DNA from: Bryoerythrophyllum caledonicum
Taxonomy: Eukaryota > Streptophyta > Bryopsida > Pottiales > Pottiaceae
DNA: 64,000 bases
Direction of reading: 5' to 3'
Assembly: GCA_963971425.1 (NCBI GenBank)
Contig: OZ020514.1
Coordinates: forward strand, 15,009,218 to 15,073,217
The notes beneath the pieces are model-generated. The model did not search any database. It worked only from the letters and a program-made list of their open reading frames with translations, and was not told the DNA's origin. Each line of letters starts with the position of its first letter. Position 1 is the first letter of the stretch. Position numbers and translations under genes: made by a program. Shown piece by piece: positions 13,025 to 64,000 of this stretch.

Positions 13025-13590
13025 ATATGGAATAACTTTTTTGTGTACATCTTTTGGCTTTGAAATTTATCTCACATGTTACCAGCGTAGAGATGATCTT
13101 GTGCCAAAAATTTCACTATGTATCAACAAAAATTCAATCCTAAGGAGGGCATCAAAGTTGGAAGTAGTAAAATGGTTTTCCCCTTTGTTTCTCAAAACTA
13201 CACATGTTGGTAGATTTGGAATATTATTTTTTGGATGGGTCTTTTGGACTTGAAATTTTCCACACATGCAAACAACATAAAAATGTTTTTGCTCCAAAAA
13301 TTTCATGGGCAAAAAAAATTTCCTCAATTCTTGGGAGGGTGTCATAGTTGGCAGCTGTGACACTTGTCTCACAGTTATCCCATGTTGGTAGATCTTGCAT
13401 AAGTATTTTTGTATAAGTCTCCTGGACTTGGAATTTGGTATGCATGTTTTCGACATAAAGATGATGCTGTCCCCAAATTTTCATGGTAAAATAACAATTT
13501 CTCAGCTTTGGGGAGGGTGTCAAAGTTGGCAGCAGTGTAGGACACTATCCCTGGAACTACTAAACGGCCAATTTGAATGTCACCCTATTG
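13016..13590 (-). repeat. Right TIR of Tc1 element
   Basis: Inverted partner of 10,811-11,385, with the same three-unit internal structure. It begins within the last codons of the transposase gene, so coding sequence and TIR touch or overlap by a few bases. Confidence 0.85.
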
Positions 13591-13592
13591 TA

Positions 13593-13870
13593 CAATGCAA
13601 AAATTTGATACAAAGTGAAGTCAAAGTCAGCTGATCTACTCAACGCAGGGATGAAAATGAACAATTGTTTTCACTTCAAACACTAAAATCTATCAATTCG
13701 TGCGATGGATTGCAACCAAAATTTAATGGCATGTTTATATGGAAGTCTATTTTAAGATCTTACGGTTGAATATCCAAAGTTTACTTTAAAATGTGATTTT
13801 CATGTCTCTTTATGACAGTGGCAGTTTTGGACTGGTTTCAAAGCGAATAAGGTCGTGGTCCTTTAGGGGT
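13593..13870. repeat. Dispersed repeat copy B (right of Tc1 insertion)
   Basis: Continues the repeat cut by the Tc1 element: CAATGCAAAAATTTGATAC, then AAGTGAAGTCAAAGTCAGC and CAACGCAGGGATGAAAATGA, matching 1-300 and 16,125-16,410. Ends near CTTTAGGGGTTAA, also present in copy A. Confidence 0.6.
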
Positions 13871-27372: not shown

Positions 27373-28039
27373 TGTATAAAGTCCCTAAACTCCCCCTTGG
27401 TCTAGATCCTTTCTTTTACCTGCACCTAAACACACCCTTGTGTTAGGGGTACACTAATTTAACTACCCTTAGTGCCACAACCTCTAAGTCCCTCTAATGG
27501 CCCATGGCTCAAGGGTCCTAAATGTCCCCACTTGACACCCTGGAGCCATTTCTACTTTTTGGTAAGGAGGGACCTTCTCCCTTTTCTCCTTAACACCAGG
27601 GTCTCCCTCAAGCCCTTGCTTGAGGGCTGGAGTCTCTTAAGCACCACGTGCCACTGTGGTGCCCATGGTGCATTTGCACCACGACAAGGCCAAATGAGTC
27701 CTCATGGTGCCTTTGCACCACAAGGCCTCCCCATGGTACTCCTCTTGAGGAGCACCAACTTTACTTAGGCGTCACCACTCCAGGGTGACGCTCCTTCCAA
27801 GGCGCCCCCACTCCAGGGTGCCACCACTCCATGATGACACCACTCTAGGGTGCCACCTCTCTAAGGCACCAAGGCACCACCACTCCGGTGTGGTACCTCT
27901 CCTTGGTTGCACCACTCCAAGGCGCCACTACCTTAGGGCGCCACCACTCCAGGGTGGCACCACTGTAGAGTCCCACGGCGCTACACCTCCACCACAGAGG
28001 TGTAACATGACCCCCTTCCCAGCACTTAAAGAAGTGATA
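27373..28039 (-). repeat. Chromovirus 3' LTR (667 bp)
   Basis: Begins TGTATAAAGTCCCTAAACTC on the plus strand and ends GTGATA, aligning over its whole length with the other LTR. Its right half contains repeated CACCACTCCAGGGTG and GGCGCCACCAC units. The terminal CA has become TA. It differs from its partner at many positions, so the insertion is old. Confidence 0.85.
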
Positions 28040-39695: not shown

Positions 39696-39987
39696 ACTCC
39701 TCTTGAGGAGCACCAACTTTACTTAGGCGTCACCACTCCAGGGTGCCGCTCCCTCCAAGGCCCCGCGACTCCAGGGTGCCACCACTCTAAGATGCCACCC
39801 TCCTAAGGCACCAAGGCAACAAAGCACCACCACTCGAGGGTGGTACCTCCCCTTGGTAGCACCACTCTAGGGCGCAACCACTCCAGGGTGACACCATTCC
39901 AGGGTCTCACAGCGCTACACCTCCACCACAAAGGTGGAGGCGTCCCCTTCCATGGTCACCCCTTTCCCAACACTGAGGGAGGTGACA
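39696..39987 (-). repeat. Chromovirus 5' LTR, second part
   Basis: Resumes with ACTCCTCTTGAGGAGCACC and ends GGTGACA, followed by GATA. Aligns with 27,738-28,039. Confidence 0.9.
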
Positions 39988-40556
39988 GATATGCTCAAAC
40001 TCTACGGGTAGTCTTCTTTGATCAGGTCTAATGCTTGACGTTTTCCTTCCTCCATCGCCCGGCTATATAGGCCAAGGTGTAGATGGAGACCAGCTTTGGA
40101 GTCCGACCAGCGAAGTTGTTTTGTGCGAATTTTTGTTTTTTTGCTATACGTACGATACCCTTGCAAATTGATACACAGGGATTGTAAAAAATCAAATATC
40201 AATATCGCCTCATACCCACAGGTACAGATAGGTCCTGAGCCTCAACCAACGCAAAAAGACCTGTGATGAGCCGAGGTGGGACCCGTGATGCGATTGAAGT
40301 GTACTGACTGTAGCTAGATCTGATTGAGAGGACTCTTGAGGGAGACAGAGTGGCGCGGAGTGGAGCACCTACGGTGCCACAACTTGTCCACTTCCAAATT
40401 GGAAAATTATAGGGTTGTCGCAGAAGTTGCCCCCCCAAATTCACTCTCGCAGCTGTTTTTGCGCCATGTTCCTTTTGTTCCTCGCTTTCCTTCGCAACTT
40501 CGCTGCTTCTAAGTGCTCGCGAGTCACACCAATGTGCTCCAGGGCCTAGCCGCTCA

Positions 40557-40576
40557 GGGTGAAAGCAAGCTACACC
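40557..40576 (+). repeat. Left TIR of giant transposon
   Basis: GGGTGAAAGCAAGCTACACC, identical in inverted orientation to 57,369-57,388. Preceded by CTCA. Confidence 0.85.
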
Positions 40577-42960
40577 GGTATAAAAAACATGTCACAAACT
40601 GATTTCGAAGGACTCACGAACATTCTTTGGTACACCAAGAGCAATGTACATTTCATTTCGGTTTTTTTTCTCGGAATGTTGATCCCTACTTGCTTTCTAT
40701 TACATGAATGCTAAAAACGTCCAAGGGTGCTAGATTGTTTTATCAATGGAGGTATATTTGTAGTCCGGTTTATACTTGTCAAAAACGGCGTTTTTTGTAC
40801 AAATATACCGCTTTGTAAATGAATATCGGCACATATGATCGTGAAACTTTTGGTGCACATTGAAAGGGTGCTGTGGATGGCCTATATCATAAAAAAATTC
40901 AAATCCGGTATTCCAACTCACTTCTAACGATTGAAAACAGACCGTCTTTATAGGTTTAGAAAACACCATGATTTTGGTCGTTTCTTCATTGGAGTTTTTG
41001 GAATACTTGTGTGCCATACAAAACTCTATGTAGGCTTATGGTCTTTTAAGCTAATCTAGAATTTTTATTGCAATGTCTTCAAAAATAAAGTTTTAGGAGC
41101 CCTGGCCGAATTATATACCTAATGGACGATCTAGTATGTTATGTGACCAGATGAGTATGTGAATATGGTTTCTGGTATATCCCTGTCAAGCCGCTAGAAC
41201 ACTCCACGTGTATGTGATTCGGCTCATAGAGATTCTGATAGTGCCAGTCACTAAATCAGCAGTTTGCCTACTAGTTTAACTAGCCGTAATCCTCTTAATT
41301 CTGCATGCCACAGGTTCAACGCTGCGACTGTGGGCAACCACAAAGTTGAGCCGCCAAAGCACCATCCAGATGAATGTTCCAAAATTCATGGAGAATTGAG
41401 GGTCATTGCGTCGCGATGCACATTTTGTAGTGCATTTTTTTTGTGCGAATGCTTCATGTGGGCTGAACACTGTGGGTTTTGAAGCCACGAATCTAGAGAA
41501 CAACGATGCCTCCAGGTGAGTAGGAACGCACATAGGGCGGAATATGAACCTAAGGCATACCTGAAATTGTACTACTCAAGAGCACAACAATCACTTTTTT
41601 CTTCATGACTGTTGTGGTTGTTGCGTTTTAGGCAAAATGAGTGTGGGAAGAATGTGCGCTAGAGGGACGGTTTGTAGGCAACGGCTGTTTGAAGAAATTG
41701 GCGTCCTGGCCCAGAACATGCTTCTGACCTGGGCTATCTCAGCCACTGACTTGTCCACGGCCACTACCACAACCTCCATTACCAGGTGCATATACTATGT
41801 GAAGTCACTCGGGTCCACTTAGGAAAACTGGACCTAACTTCAGCAAAGTGGTAACCAAGCACCATAATTACATTGTGACGTTGTTTTCAGTGCCAAGGTG
41901 CTTGGGAGGTAGCAGGAAAGAGGTGCGTGGGAGGTAGCGTACGCAGCGACAGAGATATTTTGACGCCGATAGGGATCAGAGTGGACAACGTGCATTACCT
42001 GAACAATGGACTCATGTGGAAGGTGCGTGCTTGGAACTTGATGGTGTTTGGTGCTTCGATTGCAGTTCATGACGTTTCCTGGGGGAATTTTCACAGTATG
42101 GCTTTCACTTGAGATGTGAATATCTGATATGATGTCTCGTGTGGACAGGCACGGCTTCTTGATTGAAGACCTGGTATAATTTGTTATAAGGCGGTTTTGC
42201 ACAGTCTTCCCACCTTATTTTCTGTGGCTGGAATTGAATTGACTGTGTATTTATTTCTAATGGTTGCTAATCTGAGGGTTGGCGTTTCACTTCAGGAGGT
42301 TATGAAGGTACCTTCATTATGATGTTCTACAGGTGAAAGCCTGAGTTGGAGCTTCAGTAGAGAATGCGACCTCCGAGGGTTAATGGATATAGATATGTTC
42401 AATTTACGTAGACTGTAATGAGAAGGCAAGTTTTGTATTGCGCTTTTATTACCATTTGTTACTCATTGAGGTAGGGCAGGATTTGTCAGGTTAAAGAAGT
42501 TTGTGAGTGTGTTTGGATCGCCTTGTATGGATAGAATTTAGATTTCTTTCGGTTTTGATAAAAAACCATCGTATACTCTAATATTTCCGAAACTCAATTT
42601 GAAACAGTACGAGAATTTTAACGGTCTAAAACACGGTTCTTACTACGATGTATTATATAAAATCACATTGTACCGTGTTTTCAAAATACACGATGTACGG
42701 TTTTTTTTACTTTGTATTTCGATAATCACGTGGTAGTAGATAAAATCAAAGTATATAATCATTAAAATCTGTCATCAATTGTCGTTGACAATGTATAAAT
42801 GTTCGTCTTGTGTTAATTTGGAATTGATCAATACCATCCTCTTTGATTCTCACATGACGAATAACCTTTTCTCAGAAGAATTGGAAATCTGCCAAGGACA
42901 CAATGGTCTCTGAACGATTCTCATAGCATTGGATTTATTAGTCTCAAAGGTTTTGTGGTC
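40577..42960. other. Left non-coding part of giant transposon
   Basis: No recognisable domain. Plus-strand open pieces at about 41,632-41,784 (bounded by TTTTAG and CAG-GTGCAT) and 41,927-42,112 could be leader exons of the transposase gene, but nothing decides this. Confidence 0.35.
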
Positions 42961-43010
42961 TCTATTTTTAACATGCAGCATTATTGTTATTCTACATTTA
43001 TATTATGTAG

Positions 43011-46000
43011 ACAATAGATGATTATGAACTAGCACTAGGAGAATCGTATTCTAACGAAGAGGACTTTGGGATTGACCTGAGACCTACTTCCATTGAACCT
43101 TGTCCATCTGCACCATTTCAAACAGCAGGTATCCATATTATGATGTAATTCTAGGCATCTCTTTTTCAAAAAATTGTTATGTATTCTCGAAGATGACATT
43201 AAACATACTGTGAGTTTTCAGAGAGTGAGTTTTTACTATCGCAATTCCATTCCAAGGATTCAGAGGGCACCTCGAATGCTAAGGGTACTTCTTTAGATCC
43301 GTGCGGAAGTACACCGTTATAGAGAACAGGTATTAAAATTCTCATGAAACTATTGTAAAGTAGTTGGAGAACCTTTGTGGAATTGAGACGTTATCAATAA
43401 ATTTGTCAACATTCTTTCAGTTCCAGAGGATCCATCGTCGACGTGGGAGGAGTCATCTTCGGATTTAGAGGGCATCTTCAAGGTTGAAGAGGATACGTTC
43501 GTGCCAAGTGTTGAGGTTAGTTCTGGTGAGGTCGTACTATACAACCATTTCGGGATTATTGAGCATGTTGTGATCAGACGTTGCTAAAATTCAATCGTTT
43601 TCCCACTTATGGTGTCCAGCAAAAATGTGCCATGTATGTCGTTCGTTACTCATTCCTGGGGGATTGTTGGTACGGTTTCTCAATTGTACGCCTATTTTGC
43701 TTGGCCTTGAAGAAAAGGCTACTTTGAAATTAAGTGAAATGGTTGGTCTTCTTCTAGAGGTTCCTAAGTGATGAGAAATGGTCTCTTACAGAGCTCGGAC
43801 TATATACTCAAGCAATTGTTTAGTACTCCGACTACTTCATTAAGATGTGGCATACCAGAAGAGACCGAGGGGCAAAAAATAGAGTGCTTCTCACACTACC
43901 AGAGTTTGTCGCTACGATAATCAATGCATTCAACTCGGATTCCAAACCCGGGGTTTAAGGTTTCAGGAGTGCGGCTGAGTTGGCTACGAGTTTAAAGAAA
44001 AGCACACGCACTGTAAGTTTCTTTTTGGAATTTTTTGGAGGTTCTTGCTAAAATAAATCAATTCATTTCTTGAGTATGGTGTGCTAAGGGTACTAGTAGT
44101 GAAGCCTCTAATTTTAGGACATGCTATACTTTATATTTCTGACTCTCATCAAAGTGTGGCAACATGGTTACCACTAGGGCCCGTGGGAGTAGGAGGGATG
44201 GGACAAGGCATGTTGCCGGAGAAAGGTCACCCATGACCACTAATGACATCACCCTTCGAAGGGAAAGGGCTGCAGTACGTCAAAGACTGCATCGGGCAAG
44301 AAAAAATATAGCTTAAGAGACGTCGCTGCAGCGTTTGTTGGCCACAGAGGATCCCAGTTTGGAACCAGTACGACGTAGGGACATCTTCAGAGTGTCTTTG
44401 AAAATTTCGGAACTCACTATAAGAGAGCTAGAGGCGGTTTGATGAAAGTGCATCCTTTCGGGAGGCCGTGTTAGAAAATGTTCTAACTGACAGGTTGATT
44501 GTTCCACATCTGCCGAAGCAATATCGGGACGTGAAAGCTAGCCATGCTTCTGTACAGTCTTACAAAAATGAATTACAGCTACTAAAACTTCCCCACTCAA
44601 AAGAAAAACTAGTGAGGAAGACCGCACTTTTGGAGGCAGCGGTCAATACTGAAGCGATAGGACTGCGAGCCTTATCGAGGGTTCTTGGCACTCATCCTAA
44701 GAACATTGCCGCAGCAAAACAACGACGTCTAAGCCTGGAATCTACTGGTTCCTCTATTTTCAGCTTGGCTGAGCGTAGAAAGAGGTTGGGCTTGCCCAAC
44801 AGTACAAGAGAGCTTGTCATTTTTTGGTGGTCTTCAAAGACGCGGGTGAGTCCAAACAAGAAGGATGTCCGAAGAAAGCGGTTGGGACCCAAGGTTTACG
44901 AAGAACATGCCACACACTTACTCCTTGAGAGTCAGGTAAACATTCGCATTACTCCATTGTGTTTCCATATGTTCTGAGAGGATCATGAGTACCGTGATTG
45001 TCATTATATACTCGTACTTAGTATGTTAATATGACATGGTAGTCCATGAGATGCTGATGCCTAATGTTTTATTAGCAAAGTTGTATGGTGCTAGCGTCCC
45101 CTGTGTAGTCTCCTAACATACGTATCAGGGTAATGTGTAGAAGACAAGTTTAGTGCATGTACCTTGTCATCCATGCACACCCAAATTTAACCAAAATGAA
45201 AGGCACTCTAGTGTATCAACGTACTTTGTTTAGCTCTTTGACATGCTTTTCAAGTCCTAGAATATACACCTGCACTGTGTTTTTTTTTGTCTCTAGTGTA
45301 TCATCATGTGGACAGTTTGTCGTTACCATTCAGATGTATCTGTATATACTTGGAGATGGCCTCGATATACTACTCAGGTTCAGTTAAAACCACTTCTATA
45401 GGATCTGACCGCATTGGAGACACTAAAAGGAATGTACGTTAGTGATCATGACATGTAGTGTGCTATATTGCTAAACAATGAAGGGTATTATATAGTTCTC
45501 ACATGCGTTCAAAAATACCTTGGTCTTGTCTATGGAGATATTGATATACCATTTTGGTATCTCTGGCAGGCGTCGTTGTATGAGCGATATACTCAAGCAC
45601 ATCGGGAGGCCTCTTTGAGTATGCGCGCATTTGAAACACTACGACCATATTTCGTAAAGAAATGTAAGGAGAGGAATGTTTGTTGTTGTAGGTACCATGT
45701 GGAACTTGATTTGTTGCGTCAAGGTCTACAGTTCCTTAGAGACACAACCAAAAATTTCCACACGAGTATTTCATGCCATTGTAGATGTGTTGTTTGTAGT
45801 CCAGAGCTTGATATCTCATGTGCAGCACATTTGACAAGCGTAGACGGAGTTACTAAGATGTGGGAGTCAGTTGTTTGTCCTAAGGAAGAGGAGGAGGAAT
45901 TCCACCGTCTGGAGTGTTTGATGGGTGATTGTCCAAGTTGTGGGGGTCATACCTTGCCCATTTGCCCCCTCGAGAATGCGAGATCAGGGATTCGATTCAA

Positions 46001-48143
46001 GTGGAGGCGTTTCGACATGCATGTCGTGGGCGTCGGTGATGATGGAAGGCCGAAGAAGCGTAAGGGGAAGTGTATATGGACACTTCTCCTATACAATTCT
46101 TTGAGTACTTGTTGCCTAAGCTCCACAGATTTATTACTCACAACTTCGTGGCGAGATGGCAGGATGTGTAGTGCTACAGAAGCATGGAGGAGCTTCCGAA
46201 GGACGTCATTCTTTCACACGTGGATTTTGCAGAGAACTACACTTTTGAGATTCAAAATGAAATACAAAGCATGCATTGGCACTCATCCCAGATCACCATA
46301 TTGGTGCACATTACGTACCGGTACGTGCGTGGCTCTGAGAGTGTTGTGAAGGAATCTCACTTCTACGTTTCTGATGATAGGACACACGACACTATATTTG
46401 TTCAACATTGCTTCCTGAAACATTGGGAGTGGCTACGCGAGCGTGGTGTCTTGATCAACAGGCACTGGGTGTGGAGTGACGGCTGCGTAGGTACTATACC
46501 TTACTGTTTACATTTATCGTACCACTTCTCTAGTTAATATACTCACCTTCATACTATCTATGCTTGTGAGGTCCTTTGCTAACCAACTGTTGTTCATACA
46601 TATCAAATTGGAAGCTATACATGTAGTATGTATAGGATGACACGTAGTGCTAAAGACGCAGATCATACTAAGCTGGTACCATTACAGTCTGTGCTTCGAT
46701 TTTAATAACACCTCCGAAGTGTTAAATTATACACATACTAAACCAAGTGTGTATATAGATAGAAAGTGAAGGTTTTGACATACAAAATTGGTATTGGTAT
46801 ATACTCATTAAAGAATATGACACAATCTTGTATATTCCTTTGCACGTATACAACAATATCAAAGTTATTTAAACACAACTCACACACTAGTAGATACTAT
46901 GTATAGGCTTTTACATAGTAGATGCACAGTTGTATATACTCTCTTAAGATTTGAGTATACTACTCTACTCCTTTCATACTCCCGTTCAATATATAAGTTT
47001 GTCCTAAACATGGCAGATGTATAATTAGATACTTCGATAAGGCTATTACATATTGCTATGCTTCTACAACAATACGTGTATGGTGTATTTACTCTTTCCA
47101 TGTGGAATGATGGTATGCAGGACAGTTCAAGGGGGCCCGCTCCATATATTTTGTCAGTAGATATCCAGGACTACCGGGCGGATGTGAAATGGAGTGGAGC
47201 TTCTTTGGACTGGGCCATGGAAAAGGAGAGTGGGATGGAGCGGGCGTTGTAGTGAAGTGAGCGTTGCAAACACAGCCCTTGGCGCAAGTTGTTGTGTTCG
47301 CAACGCCAAAGAACTCCACAACCTAAACTCCACAACCCTTGGCGCAAGCTTCACGATGCCAGGGATGCAGTGGACTTCCTTGATGAGAAGTTGGGTGGAT
47401 TGGTGGAGAGCTCAATTGTGGAAGGGAAAATTGTTTCACATCGGTTCTTTTATTACATTGTCGTATTAGCTGTGGATCGGCGACAGCCGCACCATTGTCA
47501 CACTATTTTGAGATCGAGGAAATTTCATTCCGTTCGAGCAGTGTCTGTGGCTGATCCTACATCACTGATGGTACGCGATTTGTCGTGTTACTGTTGCCAT
47601 TGCTTGGATGGCACATGTACGGCGTGCGAGAAGGTGGCACATGTGAAACCGTGGAGGGTAGTCAGGCTTTCGCCTGTGGACATGACCTTCGCGAGGGAAA
47701 TGGCGCAGCAGGGGCAACGGATTCAAGAAGAAGAAGACGCCTGGGACTACACCATAGACGAGAGTCTTGGGGACTTGGTGGATGTTGGTGACAATTTTGC
47801 CATTCATGCGGGCCAGGATAACCATGAAGGCGTGGAGTTCTACATACTACAATGCCAACGACAAAAACAGCTTGTCAGGGAGAAATTTCTGTGCATATGC
47901 GGAGGTGAGTTTGAAGTCGGTCAACACATCAGTGTAGGCACTTACTATCAAAAGTGGGGTAACAGTCCAAAGTCCTACGTATTTTTGAAAAATTCTAGAC
48001 CTGCGCATGTAGATGCAACTTTAGTTATTGCTTGTAAATTTCAAATGGTTCCGGCGTTACACAGGGTCAAAGGTGGTGACCCTGTGTACCAACTTCTTGA
48101 TGAGTCCATCAATGTTATTAGGACATCAATGGAGAGTTTGTAA
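43011..48143 (+). pseudogene. DDE-type transposase of giant transposon (Sola-like?), decayed
   Basis: Leader exons at about 43,015-43,770 are acidic and include MCHVCRSLL. The main reading starts at ATG 44,164. Intron 44,936-45,569 has GT-AG ends and kept phase (LESQ/ASLYERYT). Exon 45,570-46,490 contains a cysteine-rich middle (SCHCRCVVC, GDCPSCGGH) and the motif DFAENY with Asp at 46,222, ending SDGC with Asp at 46,478. Intron 46,491-47,120. The last exon has QFKGARS and GHGKGEWDGAG with Glu at 47,228, then LMVRDLSCYCCHCLDGTCTA, then a C-terminal BAH-like part (VGTYYQKWG). The acidic residues are candidate DDE catalytic residues. Breaks: TAA 44,314, frameshifts near 44,440, 46,070 and 47,300, TAG 46,169, TGA 47,258. 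Cut-and-paste activity is therefore lost. Confidence 0.72.
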
Positions 48144-48516
48144 GCTTTCAAAGGATTTGAGCACCTCATGGTATATAAACAAAAGGATTTATAATCTTAT
48201 GGTATATATGAAGAGGTGTGTTTTAGGAACGTCTGGTATACAGAATAAAATAATATAGAAGTTTCTCGGTCTATTGGACGGTATGTTCAAACATATTATG
48301 TTTTGGGTGTACCATCTTATGGTATGTGTTGGAGAAGTATAATGTGTATACTAATATGGTATGGATGGCAGGGTTAGTTGAATGCCCATAGTTGAACATG
48401 TGGAGGACACCTCAAATCGAATGTGTGTGATTGTGCGTTCGAATGCCACGTTTTCTGAAGTGAACATTTGTCCAATTTTACAATTGACATGAGTTCTAGT
48501 AAATATCGTAATTTCT
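48144..48516. other. Convergent intergenic region
   Basis: 373 bp between the stop codons of two convergent genes, rich in GGTATA and TATGG words. It probably holds both polyadenylation signals; no single site is clear. Confidence 0.4.
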
Positions 48517-51500
48517 CTAATGTTGACGACTCCTAGGATTACGGCATAGCCTGCTTCCACACTTGCACACAAAACTAGGAACTTGGTTTGTTGTCTCTTC
48601 AAAATCAATCCCATAGTCCCATGTGAGTTCTTCACCCGCCGCTATGTGCTGGTTAGTAAAGAATGCCACCTGCTTCGAAAGAACGATTGGATTAGTGGTT
48701 GTATTTAACTTCCATAACAAATTTTGTTGTTTTAAAAGGATAAACATCTCAATGAGTAAACATAGAGTAGTACGTGATAATAGCCCCTGAAATGCATTTC
48801 AATTATTACTGGAATCTGCAACAGGTTTACATCGTAACACCTGGGCACAAAAACAACCGAATGCAAATAAATGAAATTTACATTCGCTTGTATAGAAATA
48901 AACTTTGGACGAACATCATGCGCAATGTTAATTTCATGTTAGCCTAACCTGTGATTAAGAAACCTGGAGACATTTCCTTCATTAGTGGCATCAATTGATA
49001 GACACTCCTCATTGCGTAACCCATCCTCCAACTTCCAGTCTGCATCTAAGTTCAATTCATACTTGCCATCCGCGCCTCTACGGTTATCCAACTCGTGGCT
49101 AGATAACAACTCTTCCACAAATTCAAAGATAAAGGCACCTATCGGTAAATCTTCCAAGGTTCTAATGCCCCACTCTTTATTAGTGTCAGCCCAGAATACC
49201 TGCAACCAGATTGTCACGACATGCCCGACCTTGTATTTAGCCCTCCCTTAAATAGTATGAATATTGGGCAAAGAAGAGCAAAGGGGAGAAGAATGTCCAT
49301 AGATGAACCAAGTAACTTTTAACACACCTGGAGTTTCCTGGTGATTCCCTTTTGCACCACACGATTAGGACAATCGGAATTGCAATAACATGAAGGCCCA
49401 CATTCTTTTATGAAGGTTCACGATACGTGGCCAATACATCGGCCTCGCATACAATTAGAACAATTGTCACTATCACAGAATTCATACATATCCTCATTAA
49501 GTGGGAAAGTCTCCCTCAAGGCGTGCAAGAAATTATCACTGATTTATTAATCAAAATATAACATCGGGATGCATCATGAATAAGGAATCGATGGAAGGGG
49601 AGGCAAATATTAAATCCCTTTACCAGCTTACCATTTCAATGTAGTGCTCGTGAAGGAGGCCGTCCCTACCGTACAATGCACAGTCAGCAGCAAAATAAAC
49701 ACACTTGCATATATTGTGCCTCCCCACCCCGCATGCAGTACTGCAGTTCTTGCAACCATTCCATCGCGATGCAATCGCATCATGCTCTACACAAACAAGT
49801 CCATCAAGTGAGTTCTCTACAATGTACTGAAACTCATCCGGTCCCTGATATGGGTCTTCTTTGACAACCACGTCTATGGGGATCCGTTCAGCACCATTCG
49901 ATAAGTCGTAAGACTTTCGAAAGAGTTCAACGCCCTGCATGAGAAAGAAAATGTTGGTATTATACAACCACTCATATTTAATATCCCTTGTACTTGAAGT
50001 GTTGGTTATCAACAACAATGATACAAGACACATATGTAGGTTTTTAGGAAACAAGGTGAAAAATATACTCCTATGCCCCGTAGTACTCTAGACCAACATA
50101 TTATACGGCCATCCGATTCCCATGTCAGTTCTACAGTAACATCTTGTATAGGAAACACTCTACTAGTATAGCTCATAGTATACTATGGTATACGCATTAC
50201 GATACAATATAGTGTTGTATACTACAATTCACTATGCAGTATACTTTCCTATACTGAATATACTTCGGTCTACAAAATATACTTACAAAAACCAATGTGT
50301 ACTTCTCTATATTCCTGGAACAAAGATATGTACTGTAGAATATTGCATGTACCGCATTATACCCGAGGTCGCCGCGATATACTATTATTTGCATAACAAT
50401 AGTATGATGCACTAACCTCCAATATATTTTGACGGAGTAATGAAAATAAGGTAGTACAAATGAGTCTCGATTAATCTCAAAATGGTTGGCAGCAATATTC
50501 AGAAGGACTTGAAATGCGAGGAGAATAACAAGTCCAATATTAGCAATACCTGAGCAAAATATACAAACATCTTTTCCGGTGAATTGGTCTTCATAAGTTA
50601 TCTTTCCAGAACAGAAAATTGACACACACCCTTCTTTCCCTCATGTACATACACTAATATCACCAACGGTACAACCTCAACAAGCAAGCTACGCTAGGGA
50701 AAATGCGCACGATCTGTAGTAAGTACCAATCTCAGATTCAAAGCGTGAAGAATAAAGCTACTTTCTACAGGTTCTCTTTACCTTTGCAATCCTTGGCTCG
50801 CCACCTTCACAGGCTCCGGCATCCTCAGTATCTGGACGGTCGGCTTTCCTCCTCTTACCCGAGCTCTTTTTTACTGAACTAGCCAAAACGATGTCCTCGG
50901 TACCTCCATCATGACGAATCTTCAGCTTCTCCTTTCCTTTAGCCCTCGTCAGGGCTCTACAGTCTTTGTCAGCAACAATGTTTGCCTTCGCAACAACGCT
51001 AGCATCCGGTGCAATAATATTAGCCTCCGCCACATTGGAAGAGATCCCCTTGCCTCTGACGACCTTGTGAGCTTTTTTCGTCTTCAGCTCAGCGATCCTT
51101 TGATTACACTCCGCCCGTAATGCCGCATCTGTCATCGCAAAGTCCTCCCCATTTCGCTCATCGGATTCACCTTCACATTCATTAATCGCTGCAAGATAGG
51201 CAAATATTAAATATCGGCACCTCCGAATACCATGTACTTATGGAAAACCATAAGCATGACTCCTAACTTGTCACAAACAATAACACAGGGTAATATTCTT
51301 ATGTACATATGTAGATCCGAACTTTAGAGTGTTTAATTCTAATCATGGAAGACACCAACATTAAGTGCACTTGTCTAATCTGGCGATGTCTTATCAAGAG
51401 GCAATGACCCACGTTTACTGGAGTTTGGCACATGTCGCTCACCCTTGCTACACTTCTCTGAGGATTTGACGCCGGTGGTGGACTTTGGCGTAGGTCCCAG

Positions 51501-54500
51501 AGCCATGGTGGACTTTGGCGAAGAATCTTTGGCGTTGCTGAACTTCGGCAAAGAATCCACCGTGTTCTTTGACGGTGAAGCATGATCCACAAAGCTGGGA
51601 TTCAGATTCTCCAAAGATAGCTGCATCTTATCCAGCGCTGGTGAATCGGCTAAACGGGGCGCCTTATCCTTCCCTGCAAAGGGCTCATTCAGGCCTTGTA
51701 ATATGCTCACCTTCTTTGTGTTCTGAACTTGATCCTCCGGCGATAGTCTCTTTAGCACTTTCACTGACGCACTTGGTGATGTGGTTGCATGCAACGCTCT
51801 CCTTGGAGTTCCTGTACCATCCCCCTTTCTTGATCCAAGCACCGCTCGAGTAGGTGTGCTTAAAACAGCAGGAGTTGCCAAGTCTTCCGCATTTGGACCA
51901 TACGAAGTGACCATGCCTGCCTCTATGGACTGCTTTCGAGGACTTATGACTACACAGTCATTTTCACCCTTCCCCTTACACTGTTCAACGTACTTCCCCA
52001 ATTTATGGAAATTGTACGGCCCACCATCCATCCTACCTTTACCATGGAGGGAAGGCAACGAAACAATGGGGGCAGAAGAGACCTTTGCCGCGCTAGTCTG
52101 CCCCATGCTAGACATATCCGTAGTAGTAGACTTTGGGCTGAAGAATCTCTGCGAAGGACCTGCAAGATCAAAATCAACTAAGATTAATTGTGTTCATTCT
52201 ACTATTCTGCGCAGTGCTACATAGTATCATAATAAATGTCGTTTCCATATCAGATTGTGACACGTGAAGACGCAAAATAGTAGCCTATACAAGGTAAACC
52301 ACATAACATAGACAAACGTACTACAAAGTTGCATTTTATATAACACATCATACTAAAATCAAAGTCGGCTGTAAAGTACACATGAAAATGGCAGACATCT
52401 CAAACACTACGCACTACTACTGAGAGTCAGAGATACTATGCACATTTACATCTAAGACTCTGCAGTCCTACTCAAACACTAGAGTCACTACAAAGTATTA
52501 CAATGTACCATTAATGTAACACATCATACCACAGTACACATCGACTGTACACTGCACTTAAAAATCTCAGACATCTCAAGCACAAAGAACTACTATTGAG
52601 AGGCTATAATCAACTCATCCGAGACTCAGCAGATATACTCAAACAGTATATAAAACTATTGCTTGGACACTATGCACTACTACTCGGACATTGTGCACTA
52701 CTACTCAGACACTATGTACTACTACTCAGAAAGTATGCACTACTACTCAAACACTGTGCACAACATCTCAGAAGTATTTACTACTACTTACACATTAAAC
52801 ACAACAAGTCAGAGTATGTACAAGAACTACTACTGAGACGCGATGCACAACATCAGAGACTCTACAGTCATACTCAAATAATATATAGTTCTACTTAGAT
52901 ACCATGCACTACTACTCGGACACTATGCAGAACTACTAAGACAATGTGCACTACTACTCAGACATTGTGCACTACTACTCAGACATTGTGCACTACTACT
53001 TGGACACTATGCAGTACTACTAAGACAGTGTGCACTACTACTCAGACATTGTGCACTACTACTCAGACATTGTGCACTACTACTCAGACATTGTGCACTA
53101 CTACTCAGACATTGTGCACTACTACTCAGACATTGTGCACTACTACTCAGACATTGTGCACTACTACTCAGACATTGTGCAATACTACTCAGACACTATG
53201 TAGTACTACTCGGATAGTATGCACTGCAACTCAAACACAATGCACAACATCTTAGTAGTATTTACTACTGCTTACACATTAAGCCTCAACAACTCAGTTG
53301 TACCAAGACACTATGCACTATTACTTGGACACAATGCACAACATCTCAGACAGTAGGCACTATACTGTCACACAATATTCATTGTATTGTCACACAGCTC
53401 GCACTATATTGGTGCACATAGGTAGGACTCCTAGGGCATTTTCTCTAGTACTTAAGAGTATCCCTCAACCAAATATACGAGCACATATGACTCACACTAT
53501 GTTTTATGTACACCATAACATACTATAAATAATACATGTATCACTATCGAGAATTGTATACCTAAACACAATATTGTACTGGAACTCAGAGACACATATA
53601 CTACATAGCATGAACAACTAATTTACTCCCCACTGCACTACAAACGTGGTAAAACCACAAACTATCCTATCCATTTTGACATTTTGACAATGGCTAAAGT
53701 TTACAAATATAGACATTCTAGTATACCATAAACAATGAGGTGCACTATTAAATACAATTGTCCTAGTAGATCATAGAGAGCATAATTACGTGGAGTAGGC
53801 ACTAACCAATTTCAGGTTGTGTTGTCTTTGCGGCCATTGTCCTCGTGGATATTGCCAACGCTCTACTGGCATCAAGGTCTAGATAATGAGCCCGCTCTTG
53901 GAGCTCAACCGGCAGCTCCCCGAACCCGTGACTTGTATACCAAGAAGGATGGACCACTCCGCAGTCATTGGTAGTACACTTGAAATTATCCTTAAACCAC
54001 ATCCTCGCACACCACAGATGATACACGTGGTGGCAACTGTAGAGCAACACATCAGAATGCGAAAACGGGAGTTCACATACGGCACAAGTCTTGTACGAAA
54101 CCGTCCTATATCCATTTCCCTCAGTATCCTCTCCATACACCATGGGATGAGGAAACAGAGCAAAGCCAACCGATCCAGAATCCAGCATCTGAATTTGCAT
54201 GACAAGATTTGCTGCTTGTCTTTCTAAGATATTGCTCCTCCATACCAACCTCACAAGCAAGTCTCTCTTTATCTCGTAATCAACCTTCAGAGAACCATGC
54301 TTCGAAGATGCCTCCTTGAGCATATCACCGTAAAACACACTCTTCATACGTAGGTCCTGGACCTCAACTTCGTCCTTGCATACCTCGAGCCGCTTCTTCA
54401 AGTTGTCCCATGTGACCTCCATGGTGTCCACAAGTTGACCCTGGATAAACATGTATTGCATGCTGCCGGCCTGTTCCTCCTTGGCGCTTTCGAGCTCCCT

Positions 54501-55383
54501 CTTGGTGGCCTCGATCTCCACCGTTACTAGTTCGCTAACGTGTTGTACCTTGCACCTCTTCTGCGTTATCCAAGAAAAACTATGGGACGACTTCACATCA
54601 AAGATCGTGCGTGTGGACTCACCTTGCTCCAATTTGCCCGGAAATGGTCCTTCAAGATATCTCCCAATCTCCTCTTCGTGCACCACCTCAGCGAATGACT
54701 TGCTAGTAATGCGAGCCTGCCGGCAAGAACACACTGTTAATAACTCATGCTAAATGAACGTGAAGTACAACACTACAGCATGGCACAAAATTGGCACATT
54801 GTTTAGAAGCCCTTACCTTTGCATTTACCAACTTCACCATTTTCTTCCGCCAAGCACTGCGCTGGTTGTAGTTGGTGGTAGCACCAAACCCAGCCCAGTC
54901 AACTTGAACGCCTTTAACCACGTCCGCTACCACGGCGATAGCAAAATCCCTACCTATGAGTTTAATGGTTGGACTACATGGCTTCTGATAACACACACAG
55001 TAGTACTTCTCAATGGCCGCCCTAATCCTAGGGTCCTTTACATACTTGAAGGAATACCCGGACTTCCCTTGGCGCTTTTGACCAAACATCTCCACAAGGT
55101 CTGCCTCCGTAACGTCTTGCTTTTCTCCATGTCTATGAGGATTCAGGTCATTCGCGTTCAACCTGAATATGTCCCTGAACGCCTCGTATGTATAGGCATT
55201 GGGCGGCAGTCTTCTTAGCGCTACCCCCATCTTCAAATCTATGTCCTCCAGTGTAGCCTCCTTCTTTTCTGGTGCCTCCTCGTCGGTTTCGCTTTCTTCC
55301 CTTGCCGCGACCACTTCATATCTCCTTTGTGATACATCACTCTTGTTGGACCCCTTCAGGGCCTTCCTTTCTTGCTTCCCCAT
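48517..55383 (-). CDS. RING-like plus SUVR-type SET histone methyltransferase, nine exons
   Basis: Exons: 55,383-54,817, 54,716-53,807, 52,159-51,419, 51,188-50,782, 49,934-49,624, 49,538-49,328, 49,199-48,949, 48,840-48,774 and 48,669-48,517. All junctions are GT-AG and phases match, giving 1,206 codons. Residues 1-189 are unrecognised. A RING-like finger at 400-441 has C400, C403, C417, H419, H422, C425, C436, C441. A disordered Lys/Ser/Pro region follows. Pre-SET has cysteine groups (CKNCSTACG; CGPSCYCNSDC). SET (from 1050) has WGIRTLEDLP, NVSRFLNHRCYDVN and ELTWDYG, and post-SET is CKCGSRLC. All hallmark residues of H3K9 methyltransferases are present, so nuclear heterochromatin marking is the likely role (family knowledge). 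One in-frame TGA at 49,418-49,420 (exon 6, where Arg fits) would remove SET unless it is an error, read through or recently acquired. It lies within the giant transposon. Confidence 0.82.
52400..53450. repeat. 21-bp minisatellite in intron 2 of SET gene
   Basis: The unit CACTACTACTCAGACATTGTG (shown split as CACTACTACTCAGAC-ATTGTG) repeats almost perfectly from about 52,945 to 53,190, with degenerate copies on both sides. It creates a long plus-strand frame of TTTQTLC heptads that I regard as an artefact. It lies wholly inside the 1.65-kb intron 53,806-52,160. Confidence 0.85.
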
Positions 55384-55469
55384 AATTACTAGGGCTCTTG
55401 AACACACCTGCAAGCTTAGCTTAGAATGTGCAACATAGCAAATTCAAGAACAAATCGTGGATTGCAAAA

Positions 55470-56590
55470 TTGTAACAAATGCAAGACAAAATCATCAAAA
55501 AAAAAACAAGAAGGTGCTTTCAGGTTCTGTAATTACGAGTAGCAAACACCATGGCCCTCGGTTAACGAATACATGTGCATCCGATCCCCTATTTGTTCTA
55601 GAGTAGTGCCCGGTGTTCGTGAACACCATAGATGGTTTAAATTAGGCAATGTGACCGCGCTGTACCAGAGGTCCAGAACCACAGAGAACCTATACCTTTC
55701 AATCCTACATACATCATACGCGCATCACAACGAACGTGGAAGGTGGAGTTTGTACCCGAACTGGCTGCTGATCGTTTCCCTCTCTCCTCAATTTCTGTAG
55801 AACCTGACATGAAATAAGGAGTGCAGTAGTTAGTGAAGTCGCAAATGAATTCCACTAGTTTGTAACAAATGCACAACAAAATCATTTAAACCTAAACATT
55901 GTAGGTGTTTCTTTGATTCTGTAAATACGAGTAACAATAGCCATGGCCTTAGGTGTACAAATACATGTGCATTAAGTCCCTTATTTATTCTAGACTAGTC
56001 TATGGTGCTCATGAACTACATAGGTGGATTAAATTGGGCAGCGCTTCCGCCGTGTACCAGAACCACGCAGAATCTAAAGCTCTAAAGCCTACATCATACG
56101 CGCATGAAAACCAACTCAGAAGGTGGAATTTGTACCCGAACCAGCTACTTGATCGCATGGATGCTAACGCTGATCCTTTCCCTCTCTCCTCAGTTTGTGT
56201 AGAACTTGATATGAAACAAGCATCGCAGTAGGTAGTGAAGTAGTACAAGAACTCTACTAGTTTGTAACAAATGGGGAGAGAATCATCACAAAAAACCAAA
56301 ACAGTACGTGTTTCCACTAAGATAATCACGAGTAGCAATAGCCATGGCCCAAGGTTAAGGAATACATGTAAATGAAGTCCCTGATTTTTCCAATAGTAGT
56401 GCCCATTGTTCGTAAACACTAGAGCTGGGGCAAACTTGATAGCGCTTCCGCGTTGGAATAGAACCACGCAGAATCTAAACCTGGCAATTCTGTGACATAC
56501 GCGCATCATGATTCAATGCATACGGTGGAATCCTTACCCGAATTGAGTGCTTGATGGCAGTGTCTTCGGTAACGCTGAACGACCTCCAGG
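55470..56590 (-). promoter_or_regulatory. Three tandem ~395-bp repeats upstream of SET gene
   Basis: TGTAACAAATG anchors start at 55,471, 55,861 and 56,263 (390 and 402 bp apart). Each unit then has ATTACGAGTAGCAA-like, CCATGGCC, ATACATGTGCAT, CATACGCGCATCA and GTACCCGAAC blocks in the same order. The array begins about 90 bp upstream of the SET gene start codon, so it is likely the promoter or leader region, perhaps with repeated transcription starts (inference). Confidence 0.7.
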
Positions 56591-57368
56591 CCACCTCAGT
56601 TCACCTGCCCTGTCGCGCCTTCACAGCCACACATCAATTACGGTCAGCTGCAGCATCAGCTGACCACTAAACCGAACATGCAAGACCCTCAAGTTATCAA
56701 AAGTAGCAATGTGAGAAAACCCTAGACACCATCTACGTTGCGTACACGTAACCCCAAAAACACGACGACCAACTATGGACTTACTAGTCCATGCTTTTCC
56801 GCGCACTTGCCTCAGCGCGCTAGCTGAAATCTTCGTCGATAGTCCAATCGCAGCGTCTTCTCTGAATGACCTACGTTGCTCTTCATCGCGCTCTCTGAAA
56901 CAACATCACTATAAACGAAAGATTGCGCCTCTCAATTAGTAGGTGCCGACCGCGAGCTGCTGACCTCCGCGCTCTTCTTCGCACGGCGATGACAGCTTCA
57001 CGTTCACTAGGCGTAGTGTTTCCTTCTGGCGCACAATCCGAAGAACATGTCAACGATGCAACACATCGCCCCCAGTCCGCACGCAGCTCACACAGCGTGA
57101 ATGAGCCTTGATCGTTACTGACCCGGCGACCCCAGTTAAGCTTGAATGCAGCGCCGTCGTGGACATTAATGACCGTCCCCATGAATGCCAGCAAACAGTC
57201 CCATGAAATTAAGCTGTAGTCGTTTCCCCCTATTAACGTCCCTACAATTTCAACGGCCGAGATTAAGAGACACGTTTTAAATGAAGGGCTGAAATTCAAC
57301 GACGGTCCAACAAAGGCCCTTGTTGGAAATATACTAAACACACCATGGTCTTTGCCCAAAATGGGGTG

Positions 57369-57388
57369 GGTGTAGCTTGCTTTCACCC
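57369..57388 (-). repeat. Right TIR of giant transposon
   Basis: GGTGTAGCTTGCTTTCACCC, exact reverse complement of the left TIR. Followed by CTCA, whose CA is also the start of the hAT-like terminus CAGTGTTTTTTT. Confidence 0.85.
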
Positions 57389-57798
57389 CTCAGTGTTTTT
57401 TTAGTGATCGGCGTGTAGTGTTTCGTGTAGTGAATCAGGAGTCTGGACCTTCAACCTTGCTTGATTGGAGCGGCGGTTTAGCGAGCGTCTGCGACTCTGC
57501 AGACTGCGTGATGCACGGTGTGACAATGCAGCGGGCAACTTCGCTGGAGCCTGGCGGCATGGCAGAAATTGGACTTTGGATCTAAATGTTCGTTCAACGA
57601 GCCAACAATGAGGCGGCGCAGAGCATCAGTCTGCAAGAAATTCACAGAGGTACGTTCCCGCAGCTCGCCTTTAAATTCACAGCTGCCCTCTGTCTCTATG
57701 ATTCATTTATTTGCTTTGGGTTTAGGGTTTAGGCGTGAATTCTCAGTCCGGTGTCTAGGAGTAATTCGGTGTCTCCATTGCTTGCCGAGGTGAGAGCG

Positions 57799-60700
57799 AT
57801 GGCTTCTCAAGTCAGGTTTCGAGGGAAGAAAAATGTGCAGGGCACACTCCCCACGTCGTACCGTGCGAAGGTTTTTGAATCTGGGAGGAGGGTGCTTGCT
57901 TCATCGAAGCCGTGTCAATCTTTGCATGGTCTATCTCTTGAGTCTGATAGCCTAAACCTGATGCGTCTTGCTGAGATTGTCCAGTCTGAGGGTGTTTCGG
58001 GAGATTATAGACATGAAGGGAGTGACGGAAGCACTGCCTTCAAGCCTGAAAAGGTGGTCCACCTCTCAGACTCAGAGCCAATGCTGATGAGGTCCGAGGT
58101 TGGAAAGAAGGTAATTTTTCGTCCCATGTTTTCTGACTTGGTTTTGTTGTCCTCTGACTCGGAGGTTAAGGGTGAGAGCTCCTCCCAAGGGGGCTCCAGA
58201 GGCTATGTGCGAAAGTTCCAACCCTCTTGGGCAGCCTCCTTTCCTTCGGCCGAGCCTGTCTACGACGATGCCGGAGTTGCACACATGGTGAAGTGTACAA
58301 TCTGTACAAGGATTGAGAAGCACGTTACCACAATTTGCATGAAGAAGGACAATCTCAACAAACATGGTGGCTGGAGGTGTGCAACTCGAAGTATGCTGAA
58401 GGGGGGAGTCTTGAAAGGAGAATGGTACCGTGACCGCCAGAACAAACACTTCAAGAACGAGAGGTTGTTTGCGGCCTTGGGGCGTGATATTGTTCTGGAC
58501 ATCCTTCAGAAGGACAATCCAGCAGCTCGGCACAAGAAAATTGAGCAATTCTCGCTGATTTTTTGGCTCTGGAGTAATGGCCAACCGTTGAGGGACTACC
58601 CTCTTGCAGTGGAGCTCTTCAATTTCCTCAATGTTTCATGTCCCAAGAAACACTGGTGCTTGTCATCGGCGTGGGGCATGGCAGAGGCACTGCATCATGT
58701 CTTTCGCATGAATGTAAAGTCCCTCTTACTTTCTGCTCGTTTCATTGCAATGTCAGCCGATGAGGTTACTTCAATTGATAATGCTTCCTAGATCTCTATT
58801 CATGCGTTTGTAGTTGTGGACAATGTGAGAGTGCCCTTACAGTTGGCATTGGAGAGAGTTGTTGCCACTAGCAAGGCTCAAAGCGACCACATTACGAAGT
58901 TCGTCATGGCAACCCTTTTGGTGCCTGGTGGTCTTACGCACGAGCAAGTCATGGAGAGGCTGGTCTTATTCGGTGCTGACGGACACAGTGTGTTCCAAGG
59001 CTGTAGAAACGGCGTTACAGTTCAAATTAGAGACAAATATGCCCCGCACCTGATAGGTGTTCATTGCATAGCTCATCGGACAAGCTTGGCTGTCCAGGCC
59101 ATGTCGAGTACTTACCTTGTAGTCCGTACCGAAGTCCCCATACAAAAAGTCTATGAGTATTTCTCGAAGAGTTCTAAGAGGCATTTGAAGTTCACAAAAC
59201 TAGCTGACATTATGGAAACAAAGGGGAGGAAGATCTTGAAGCATGTCAAAACCCGCTGGTTGAGCTTGCTTCTATCCTCTCAGCGTGTACTTAGTGCATA
59301 CCGCACCCTGGTGATGAAGATGGAGTTAGATGATTCGAAGGATACTAACTCAAAGATTGTGTTGGCTTCTCTCATGGACATTGAGACCCTGCTCGGGCTT
59401 GCATGCCTGATTCCGCTCATGGAGGTCATTGACTACATGATGCAGTTCCTGCAAGCAAGGGTTGTGTATGAGTGTGATTTCGTAGCCGCCCTTAGGGAGT
59501 GCCAATTGCAAATTTGCACAATGTTCTTGGATCCTGAATTGGCCTTCAAGTCTGATAATTTTGACTTGTTGCATGGGCTGGAGGAGACATGCTCTCCAGC
59601 CATTCGTTTGAAGTGGGTCAGTGACCTCAACGAGAACGATGTAGAGCACCTTGCCTTCGCAAGCTCAGAGGTCTCAAACAACGTCTGGCTTTGTGAAACT
59701 AACTTTGTGACTCGTGCAAAAACAATGGTTACTTGACAGGTTCGGGCCGCTGCCATTGCGAGGACAAAGGACGCAGTCACAGGTAAGATCTCGCCCCTCT
59801 TACAAATTGCTATCCATGTGATTGAAGGTCGCTCAATCTACGTTGTTCTCTTTCGTTGTTGTCCCTCTTCCATATGTTGCACTGTTTGGGCCGAGTCAAG
59901 CCTTCTTCTCACTGCTTTCACTGCTTGTTTCATTGCGTTGTTCACGTTTCTAACTTCCTCTCTGCTTGTTGTGTTGTTCACGTTGTTTTCCTATTCACCA
60001 TGGTTTTGGGCTGTTGTTCATTTGTGTTGTTCAATACGTTCCTGTTCATCGCTGCCATTGTGATGCGTCTTTGTGTTGTTCAGGTCGTTCCTGTTCACCA
60101 TGGTCGTTGTGTAGTTCATTTGTGTTGTTCACGTCGTTCCTGTTCACGATGCAAATAGCGTTGTTCACGTCGTTTTCCTGTTCACCATGGTCGTTGTGTT
60201 GTTAATGTGTGTTCACTACATGCCGTCGTTCACGTCGTTGTCACAGCCTGGCGTTGTTGCGTTGCAATGAAGTATACTTTGTGTCGTTGGTTGCATTGTT
60301 CTTACTCCGCCTCACTTCAGTCGATGTGTTCATTGTACAGGGGCTGCCCGCTCCATTGCTGCGGAGCTGCATTTCCGATTCCTTTCGCAGCCGATCATGG
60401 ATGCCCTGGGAGTAGTGTTCCCGCAATTCTTGAGGGATGAGCATGCTGACGAGTCCTTTTTCAAGCACCTTGCGGTGCTGAAGCAGCATTTCTGCCAGGC
60501 GAAGAGCATTACAGGATGGCCTGACTGAAGTGATGTTAGTACCGCAAGGCTCCTATCTGCCCACGCCGTTGATGCTCAAAGCGCCATGTTTCGCTTGGCG
60601 ATGAAGGCAAATTGGTCCACTGCCATGGCTCGGCCCATCACCATCAATCCTTAGACGAGGGCATGGCACCAGCTTGGGGCAATTAGCATCTTGCTAGCAG

Positions 60701-62854: not shown

Positions 62855-64000
62855 TAGATCAATATCAAGAAATTCCAAGTCATTGTCAACCGATTTGCCC
62901 GATGCTACATTGATGATGTTATCATTTATTGTAGCAACCCTTAAGTCTATGCGAGGCATCTTTAAGCAGTGTTTGAGAGGTTACGGCAGTGGAGATTGCA
63001 ATTGCACCATGACAAGTGCAAGTTCTTCCACGATCGGTTGCCATATTTGGCACATATGATTGTTCCAGGGGGTCTTGGCGTGCAATTGGCCAAGGTGGAT
63101 TCGTTGCAGAAGATTCCTGTCGCAACCAACGTGTCACGGCTTCAAGCTTTTTTTGGCTTGGTGAATTACTATCACCAGTTTGTCAAGAACTTTAGCTTGA
63201 TTCTTAAGCCATTGACTAATCTCATGGAAAAGGATCAACCATGGACTTGGGGACAAGAGCAACACCAGACATTTGTTCCTTTCAAGCTGAAGCTCAATTT
63301 AGTGCCCATGTTACGGCGTCCAGATGCTACACAACCCTTTGAGTTGCACACAAACTGGAGCGCTATGGGAATGGAGGTTGTGTTGGCTCTGAAGGATAAT
63401 AAGGGACGGGAGTACGTTGTGACTTTGCTTTCAAGAGCAATAACAATGCGGAGTATAACTATTCGTCCCATGAGAAGGGGGGCCTTGGCCGCGGTTTGGG
63501 CCATAGCTCATTTTAGGCCCTATTTGAATGGGCAACGTTTTACATTGGTGACCGACCATCAGCCTTTGAAGTGACTCATGGAGCCTGACAAGCTTAGTAA
63601 AAAGCTTGCCAGGTGAGTTTCGTTGCTTCAGGAGCATGACGTTAAGGTTGAACATCGGGTCAACATCACGAACTTGGATGCGGATGGTCTATCATGCGGA
63701 TGAGGATTTGGATAGGATCCAAGTTTTTAGCGATGTGTGGGAAGACAGTCCAATCTTGCACAAGCTACAACATGGAGCTCTTCTCCCAGCTCTTTCTGCT
63801 ATGGAGCGTAATAGAGTTGGGCACCGAATAGTGAGGTTTTGTTGGGAAAACAACCTTTTATTTTGGGTGTCGCCAGATGGGACTAGGCGCATAGTTCCAA
63901 GACTAGATCATAGGGCTTTTCTTGGTACGACAAGTACCCAAAGACCTAGGACATTTTGGTGTGCGACGGACTCATTCAATGTTGCGCAGCCGGTACTGGT
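62855..64000 (+). pseudogene. Second Ty3-type pol fragment, running off the window
   Basis: A short RT active-site segment (NRFARCYIDDVIIYCSNP, about 62,888-62,940, then TAA) leads into 62,969-63,574: ERLRQWRLQLHHDKCKFFHD, LQAFFGLVNYYHQFVKNFSL, then RNase H (QPFELHTNWSAMG, YGQRFTLVTDHQPLK-like, here YLNGQRFTLVTDHQPLK). Paired frameshifts near 63,430-63,475 scramble the NNNAEYNYSSHEK stretch. After TGA 63,572 it continues to a TNLDADGLS motif. At the right edge, in another frame, comes the integrase zinc finger (KDLGHFGVRRTHSMLRSRYW). RNase H Asp in HTDW appears as HTNW. Not closely similar to the 27-40 kb chromovirus. Broken; the rest lies outside the window. Confidence 0.82.

Follow-up and report, generated by a model that had tools for sequence, protein, structure and literature searches.

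A Sola-type DNA transposon family of Bryoerythrophyllum caledonicum carrying a putative histone methyltransferase gene

We analysed a 64,000-nucleotide stretch of Bryoerythrophyllum caledonicum DNA (contig OZ020514.1; hereafter the window) and found that the element at positions 40557-57388 is a single decayed copy of a family of large cut-and-paste DNA transposons, recently active and of the Sola type. That the element is a mobile DNA transposon with a cargo gene, here called RING-SET for its RING finger and SET domain, is near certain. Judged from sequence, the SET gene moreover belongs to a transposon lineage as its conserved second gene, and natural selection appears to have kept it functional in several related families of transposons.

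A first-pass annotation had proposed a DNA transposon carrying a heterochromatin-type SET gene, citing a perfect 20-bp inverted repeat flanked by CTCA on each side and two convergent genes. The repeat and its flanks lie exactly where it placed them, and the proposal itself is borne out by the counts of ends and copies in the genome and by the SET domains. Other copies with both genes, different flanking DNA and their own 4-bp duplications, which that annotation had suggested looking for, do exist. As candidate functions of the cargo it had offered control of the element's own silencing, masking and suppression of competitors. Both genes exist too, the transposase and RING-SET, although both are broken in the window copy and their open versions are found in other copies.

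Element ends and copies in the genome

The element is bounded by the following features, the terminal inverted repeats (TIRs) having been identified by an inverted-repeat search and by counting 20-mers in the genome.

40553..40556, no strand: left 4-bp target-site duplication, CTCA (a matching duplication is present in all 12 copies whose two flanks were read)
40557..40576, + strand: left TIR, 20 bp
57369..57388, - strand: right TIR, 20 bp
57389..57392, no strand: right 4-bp target-site duplication, CTCA

The two TIRs form a perfect inverted pair with CTCA on both outer sides, and they are the sole inverted pair of at least 20 bp found within 39.5-58.5 kb (search seed 14). When up to three mismatches are allowed, the TIR 20-mer occurs in the window at these two sites only, against an expectation of 0.01. 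The genome surveyed was the window's own (G000; 437 Mb in 894 contigs), in which the exact 20-mer occurs 22 times, including the window's two, and its reversed control not once. A right-end variant with one base changed occurs 15 times (control 0), in every case 17.2-30.3 kb from a left end with the exact 20-mer. A chance inverted repeat is ruled out by these counts, and a nested element with long TIRs of its own, which might have brought the SET gene, was rejected as no further inverted pair of at least 20 bp was found inside (seed 14). Counting the 15 variant right ends, the window copy and c7_27.29, whose right end was located by alignment, there are at least 17 two-ended copies.

Of the 20 other TIR matches, we retrieved 10 as stretches of 20 kb and read the remaining 10 by end and SET probes only. 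Seven of the fetched stretches hold full-length copies, 16.66-17.31 kb in size. Every one of the eight full copies has a perfect 4-bp duplication of its own (CTCA, AACC, CACA, TGCT, CAAA, AGCT, TGCC and TTAA), and four more copies read at both ends have AGAA, TAGT, ACAA and TATA; in the other six of the 10 probed copies the right end fell outside the probe, which leaves 12 copies with sequence from both sides. The eight fully read copies have mutually unrelated flanks, the sole exception being a short repeat common to the two flanks of c4_17.56 itself. The element has thus moved, and it has done so recently, because six copies (hereafter the young copies) are 99.1-99.6% identical to each other; the window copy matches them at 94.4-94.5% and c7_27.29 at 91.5-91.6%. 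Most of the aligned copies have an imperfect right TIR, with one mismatch in six of the eight and two in c7_27.29.

The fetched stretches that are not full-length differ in kind. c1_12.57 is a right-end fragment only, while in c2_8.59 just the first 5.2 kb of the stretch read match. The latter could nevertheless be a copy with an interruption, since a pair of SET exons with 86-94% identity lies about 32 kb inward of its left end (C2:8559858-8560558 and 8592258), on the strand that fits one interrupted copy. c1_29.51 (L005; C1:29511340 inward) has the same 20-bp TIR and only about 490 bp at 65% similarity, with no transposase or RING-SET match within the 20 kb read, and perhaps represents a related or non-autonomous family. 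Two copies of 30.2 kb (C12:20618511-20648775 and C853:23854-54056; L037, L038, L047, L048, L057 and L058) share an extra insert that is 99.9-100% identical in the pieces read, while 12 bp of their left flanks differ. The insert holds an open reading frame that we take to be a CACTA-like transposase, and a SET exon in both copies has two stops. The two may represent a composite element, mobilised together with a nested transposon, or else an assembly effect.

The two genes and their recurrence in diverged families

The transposase gene lies on the + strand, in three exons, and is convergent with the RING-SET gene.

44164..44935, + strand: transposase exon 1; broken here by TAA at 44314-44316 and a one-base frameshift near 44430
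45570..46490, + strand: transposase exon 2, with two of the three invariant Asp; broken here by a one-base frameshift near 46065 and TAG at 46169-46171
47121..48143, + strand: transposase exon 3, with the GHGKGxxDG motif; broken here by TGA at 47258-47260 and a 49-bp insert near 47277

The TAA, TAG and TGA, the two one-base frameshifts and the 49-bp insert together disable the window transposase. The c2_10.68 transposase has one stop, and in c4_17.56 the transposase and RING-SET genes are both open. No Pfam family of any kind was found for the 887-aa transposase at E<=1, nor any Foldseek match at E<=0.001; its predicted integrase-like fold is clear in a second comparison, VIA-align, and the model shows a DDD (three-aspartate) catalytic triad in an RNase H-like fold. 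The best named transposase match is from Ceratodon purpureus, at 40%.

The triad, the integrase-like fold and the 4-bp duplications fit the Sola superfamily, described as having a DDD transposase, 4-bp duplications, TIRs of 11-1124 bp and some members longer than 15 kb, and as found in a moss (PMC10741241; here and below, what is attributed to published work refers to the parts of each source available to us). The likeness is drawn from descriptions of the superfamily: a DDD transposase, 4-bp duplications (12/12 copies), a size above 15 kb and TIRs are common to both, and the RING-SET gene sets the window family apart. Ginger, whose transposase is highly similar in sequence to Gypsy integrase (PMC10741241), was ruled out since our transposase matches no Pfam family at E<=1 despite its integrase-like fold, and the same result disposes of a Harbinger or MULE transposase. 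Kolobok makes TTAA-specific duplications, and TTAA is found in only one of the 12 copies; the fungal IS3EU has 6-bp duplications and TIRs of more than 30 bp, against 4-bp duplications and a 20-bp TIR here.

The RING-SET gene lies on the - strand and has nine exons, all junctions being in phase, for a total of 1191 codons.

54817..55383, - strand: exon 1, N-terminal module, related to P0001
53807..54716, - strand: exon 2, with the RING finger
52666..53245, no strand: 21-bp minisatellite in intron 2
51443..52159, - strand: exon 3 (linker)
50782..51188, - strand: exon 4 (linker)
49632..49934, - strand: exon 5, first half of pre-SET
49328..49510, - strand: exon 6, second half of pre-SET
49418..49420 (read 49420-49418), - strand: in-frame TGA breaking the window SET gene, an Arg codon in open copies
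48949..49199, - strand: exon 7, SET domain core
48774..48840, - strand: exon 8
48517..48669, - strand: exon 9, end of SET and post-SET CxCxxxxC
55470..56542, no strand: tandem units spaced about 390-400 bp, upstream of RING-SET and before the right TIR, a possible regulatory array

The 1191-codon frame is open in five of the six young copies read whole, and the SET gene in five of the eight aligned copies. We probed 10 further copies and saw the whole SET region in five, in four of which the SET exons are open. The protein consists of a RING, a linker and pre-SET, SET and post-SET, and is of the plant SUVR1/2/4 type without WIYLD. Pfam finds SET (1.1e-17) and Pre-SET (7.7e-9) in the 1191-aa protein and does not find WIYLD (PF10440) in it; the post-SET cysteines are present. 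The RING is weak, with a RING_16 score of 29.2 bits for window exon 2 (cut-off 27.4) and 22.3 for the young full protein. In a protein search, the matches listed (the best 120 of 195, candidates having at least about 655 aa) belong to the plant SUVR1/2/4 type, carry WIYLD and are 40-49% identical to the cargo. The cargo thus shares pre-SET, SET and post-SET with SUVR1, SUVR2 and SUVR4 but lacks their WIYLD, has an N-terminal module and a RING finger and, in the unrooted tree described below, forms a long separate branch. The N-terminal module has one relative, P0001, in the database search (candidates of 0.55-1.75 times the query length), with similarity running straight across the exon 1/2 junction; its predicted fold was not used, its pLDDT (predicted local distance difference test) being 50.

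RING and SET could also be two tandem genes rather than one protein, an arrangement compatible with any function considered below. We think this improbable: unspliced exon 2 does meet a stop right after its donor, and intron 2 is long (1.6 kb), but all junctions are in phase and both the donor and the acceptor of intron 2 are kept in eight of eight copies. In the diverged loci L060 and L061, introduced next, the frame continues past the donor, so that the early stop is not conserved, and the start of exon 3 is recognisable.

Beyond the window family, the SET part has at least 269 exon-level matches in the genome (from the best 150 of 487 candidates scored), these being exon matches and not genes. 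They comprise the window family, at 84-97%, and several classes at 48-78%; at least 269 SUVR-type SET exon matches seems very many for one plant genome. We read four diverged loci, one per similarity class, chosen by hand and not at random. Homologous transposase sequence lies tail to tail with the SET gene in all four, though for L062 the fetched stretch holds only an 80-residue C-terminal piece of it, and the RING module and linker lie upstream in the same order in the two loci covered by that check (L060 and L061; L059 and L062 fell outside it). The SET motifs are preserved: NHR is present in five of five transposon SETs, and ELTWDYG and the post-SET CxCxxxxC in four of five, where readable, the residue after NHR in L060 and L062 not being judged as the alignment may run past the exon end. 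In a tree, the five transposon SETs fall on one side of a branch against 20 SUVRs with support of 95/90 (unrooted, without other SET families, and with L059 on a long branch), whereas a tree with one transposon sequence gave it an end branch 2.88 long and an unsure placement among plant SUVRs. As the pair of transposase and SET recurs in diverged families, the architecture is, in the loci read, inherited by the transposon lineage, the two genes having descended together.

We used the ratio of non-synonymous to synonymous substitution rates (dN/dS) to examine selection on the two genes. Three pairs were compared within the family, window-c2_10.68, c7_27.29-c2_10.68 and window-c7_27.29; in that order, dN/dS is 0.29, 0.32 and 0.22 for the SET exons (Fisher p 8e-4, 8e-4 and 8e-7), 0.42, 0.22 and 0.31 for the RING module, 0.42, 0.24 and 0.37 for the transposase and 0.78, 0.66 and 0.55 for the linker (exons 3-4). 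These values understate the constraint, because neither gene is intact in the window copy or in c7_27.29 and the c2_10.68 transposase has a stop. Among the six young copies, private differences yield about 0.48 for the SET gene and 0.51 for the transposase. Between families, dN/dS is 0.11-0.18 for the SET core at dS 1.29-2.25, and 0.14-0.24 for pre-SET plus SET, in the same six unsaturated pairs of ten; it is 0.06-0.13 for the transposase (from three unsaturated pairs of ten, of which two cover 75-80 codons) and 0.15 for the RING module (one unsaturated pair of three). Pairs with saturated dS were left out of these ranges, namely four of ten for the SET core (all those with L059), seven of ten for the transposase and two of three for the RING module. 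Thus, as far as these pairs go, purifying selection has kept the SET gene about as strictly as the transposase.

A one-off capture is ruled out by the same architecture in diverged loci together with the between-family dN/dS. Equally, it is very hard to maintain that a host SUVR gene was caught by chance and is carried passively, without function. Plant transposons are known to capture host genes (PMC13317346) and the SET gene is broken in three of eight copies, but a SET-core dN/dS of 0.11-0.18 between families contradicts a lack of function, and the open frame in five of six young copies and the same architecture in diverged families also speak against it. Taken as sequence evidence, the case that the cargo is functional is unusually good. 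It could function as part of the transposition machinery, the SET protein marking chromatin or modifying the transposase for insertion or excision in a given chromatin state. The pairing with transposase sequence in four of four diverged loci and the similar constraint on both genes agree with this, while the 12 duplications have no obvious common sequence (which speaks to sequence and not to chromatin state); we regard such a role as unlikely.

Candidate functions of the RING-SET protein

The copies decay in a manner typical of methylated DNA. Private C>T changes in the window copy stand at 7.0% in CG, 8.0% in CHG and 2.7% in CHH contexts, with T>C at 0.67%; in c7_27.29 the corresponding figures are 6.2, 7.9, 4.0 and 1.8%, and in the six young copies 0.74, 0.74, 0.24 and 0.045%. 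In plants, CHG methylation is tied to dimethylation of lysine 9 of histone H3 (H3K9me2) through the CMT3 loop. Given this tie, the CG- and CHG-type decay indicates that the copies seem to sit in H3K9me-type chromatin.

We tentatively favour, as somewhat short of an even chance, a reading in which RING-SET acts as a self-limiting repressor. The RING-SET protein would be an active enzyme that methylates H3K9 in the chromatin of copies of its own transposon, and either the N-terminal module or the RING part would see to targeting or turnover. This methylation would feed the host's loop of H3K9 and CHG methylation and damp expression of the element as copies accumulate, and such self-limitation may keep damage to the host low and let the copies persist. 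Arabidopsis SUVR4 takes H3K9me1 to higher states in vitro and binds ubiquitin through its N-terminal WIYLD, with ubiquitin binding in vivo unclear (PMC7218100). The cargo has an N-terminal RING-finger region and no WIYLD, which suggests that ubiquitin may still be part of the mechanism.

Several observations weigh against a working, self-silencing enzyme. The window copy, c1_9.44 and c7_27.29 have a broken SET gene; c2_34.52, one of the five open copies, has lost the last splice acceptor, and two of the four further open copies have lost an acceptor. All five transposon SETs have F before E[YF]xGE, where 20 of 20 sampled SUVRs have C, and L060 has K instead of E in that motif. The linker gives no significant constraint between the window copy and c2_10.68 (dN/dS 0.78, p 0.27). 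Arabidopsis SUVR1 and SUVR2 showed no activity in vitro (PMC7218100). The decay pattern means that the copies are methylated, by their own enzyme or by the host's, and host enzymes alone would give the same pattern. Finally, selection on the element accounts less easily for a self-silencing gene than for an anti-silencing one.

This last point leads to a close rival, which we nevertheless hold to be rather unlikely, namely that the RING-SET protein protects the element from silencing. It might compete with host SUVR/SUVH proteins, change the mark (for example to H3K9me3, which the CHG loop may not read) or drive degradation of a silencing factor through its RING. Anti-silencing is directly favoured by selection on the element, plant VANDAL transposons (MULE) encode the VANC anti-silencing proteins, the family has had recent bursts (>99% identity), and the cargo has its N-terminal RING-finger region without the WIYLD found in the plant SUVR matches listed. 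However, the SET motifs are strongly constrained, as for a working enzyme and not a binding decoy alone, and the copies, young ones too, decay with the CG/CHG methylation signature. VANDAL elements resemble ours as plant DNA transposons with an accessory gene acting on silencing, but VANC is an anti-silencing binding protein for which the available accounts mention no SET domain.

Other known systems share parts of the arrangement. The 21.5-kb giant element Sola1-1_Ec32 of Ectocarpus (PMC12477816) is another giant Sola whose epigenetic-enzyme gene and transposase lie on opposite strands, but that gene is a ParB-DNA methyltransferase (N4mC or N6mA) and not a histone methyltransferase. HarbingerS and MuDR DNA transposons of oomycetes (Phytophthora) are reported to carry a SET gene (PMC12730594, citing Kojima and Jurka 2014); they are likened to ours by the description of SET only, as DNA transposons with a SET histone methyltransferase gene, and belong to other superfamilies and an oomycete host. 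Retrotransposons with DNA methyltransferase (DNMT) genes, mostly under purifying selection, are described in dinoflagellates and Klebsormidium (PMC5890265) and also carry a host-type silencing enzyme, though these combine a retrotransposon with DNA methylation where ours combines a DNA transposon with a histone-type enzyme. SETMAR joins a SET domain with a DNA transposon (PMC6326780) but is a single host fusion gene, not a mobile two-gene family. The first-pass annotation knew of no described plant DNA transposon with SET cargo; for plants this agrees with our search, in which none was found in the open PubMed Central (PMC) literature (subscription papers and Repbase lying outside the search) and a 2026 review of gene capture in plants (PMC13317346) makes no mention of histone, SET domain or methyltransferase, but beyond plants SET-carrying DNA transposons are in print for oomycetes. 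Therefore, only the plant and Sola-type setting looks new.

On a broader view, which we put forward more tentatively still than self-limitation by the window family, giant Sola-type transposons of a land plant may, as an entire lineage, employ a histone methyltransferase of their own as a heterochromatin system encoded by the transposon, which was passed on along with the transposase and multiplied into many SET copies. If so, the host's own enzymes of this type might be far outnumbered by those that belong to the parasite. In most accounts transposons are the targets of H3K9 methylation; here an enzyme of that kind seems to belong to a mobile lineage that has long kept it working, which makes it testable whether, as has long been asked, transposons govern their own silencing or that of rivals. 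The protein is also a possible natural module linking a transposon-specific part to an H3K9-type SET domain.

Surroundings of the element

Just right of the element, at 57751-59736, are two long open reading frames of 346 and 306 aa, presumably from a hAT-type transposase. Related arrays of 16-bp tandem repeats, 80% identical, occupy 27738-28002 and 39696-39936, the latter just left of the element. Further off, 10806-11391 and 13011-13595 form an inverted pair (586 bp, 96.6% identity, about 1.6 kb apart) that is another foldback or TIR element, and the long open reading frames at 62969-63998 we take to be a Gypsy-type reverse transcriptase region.

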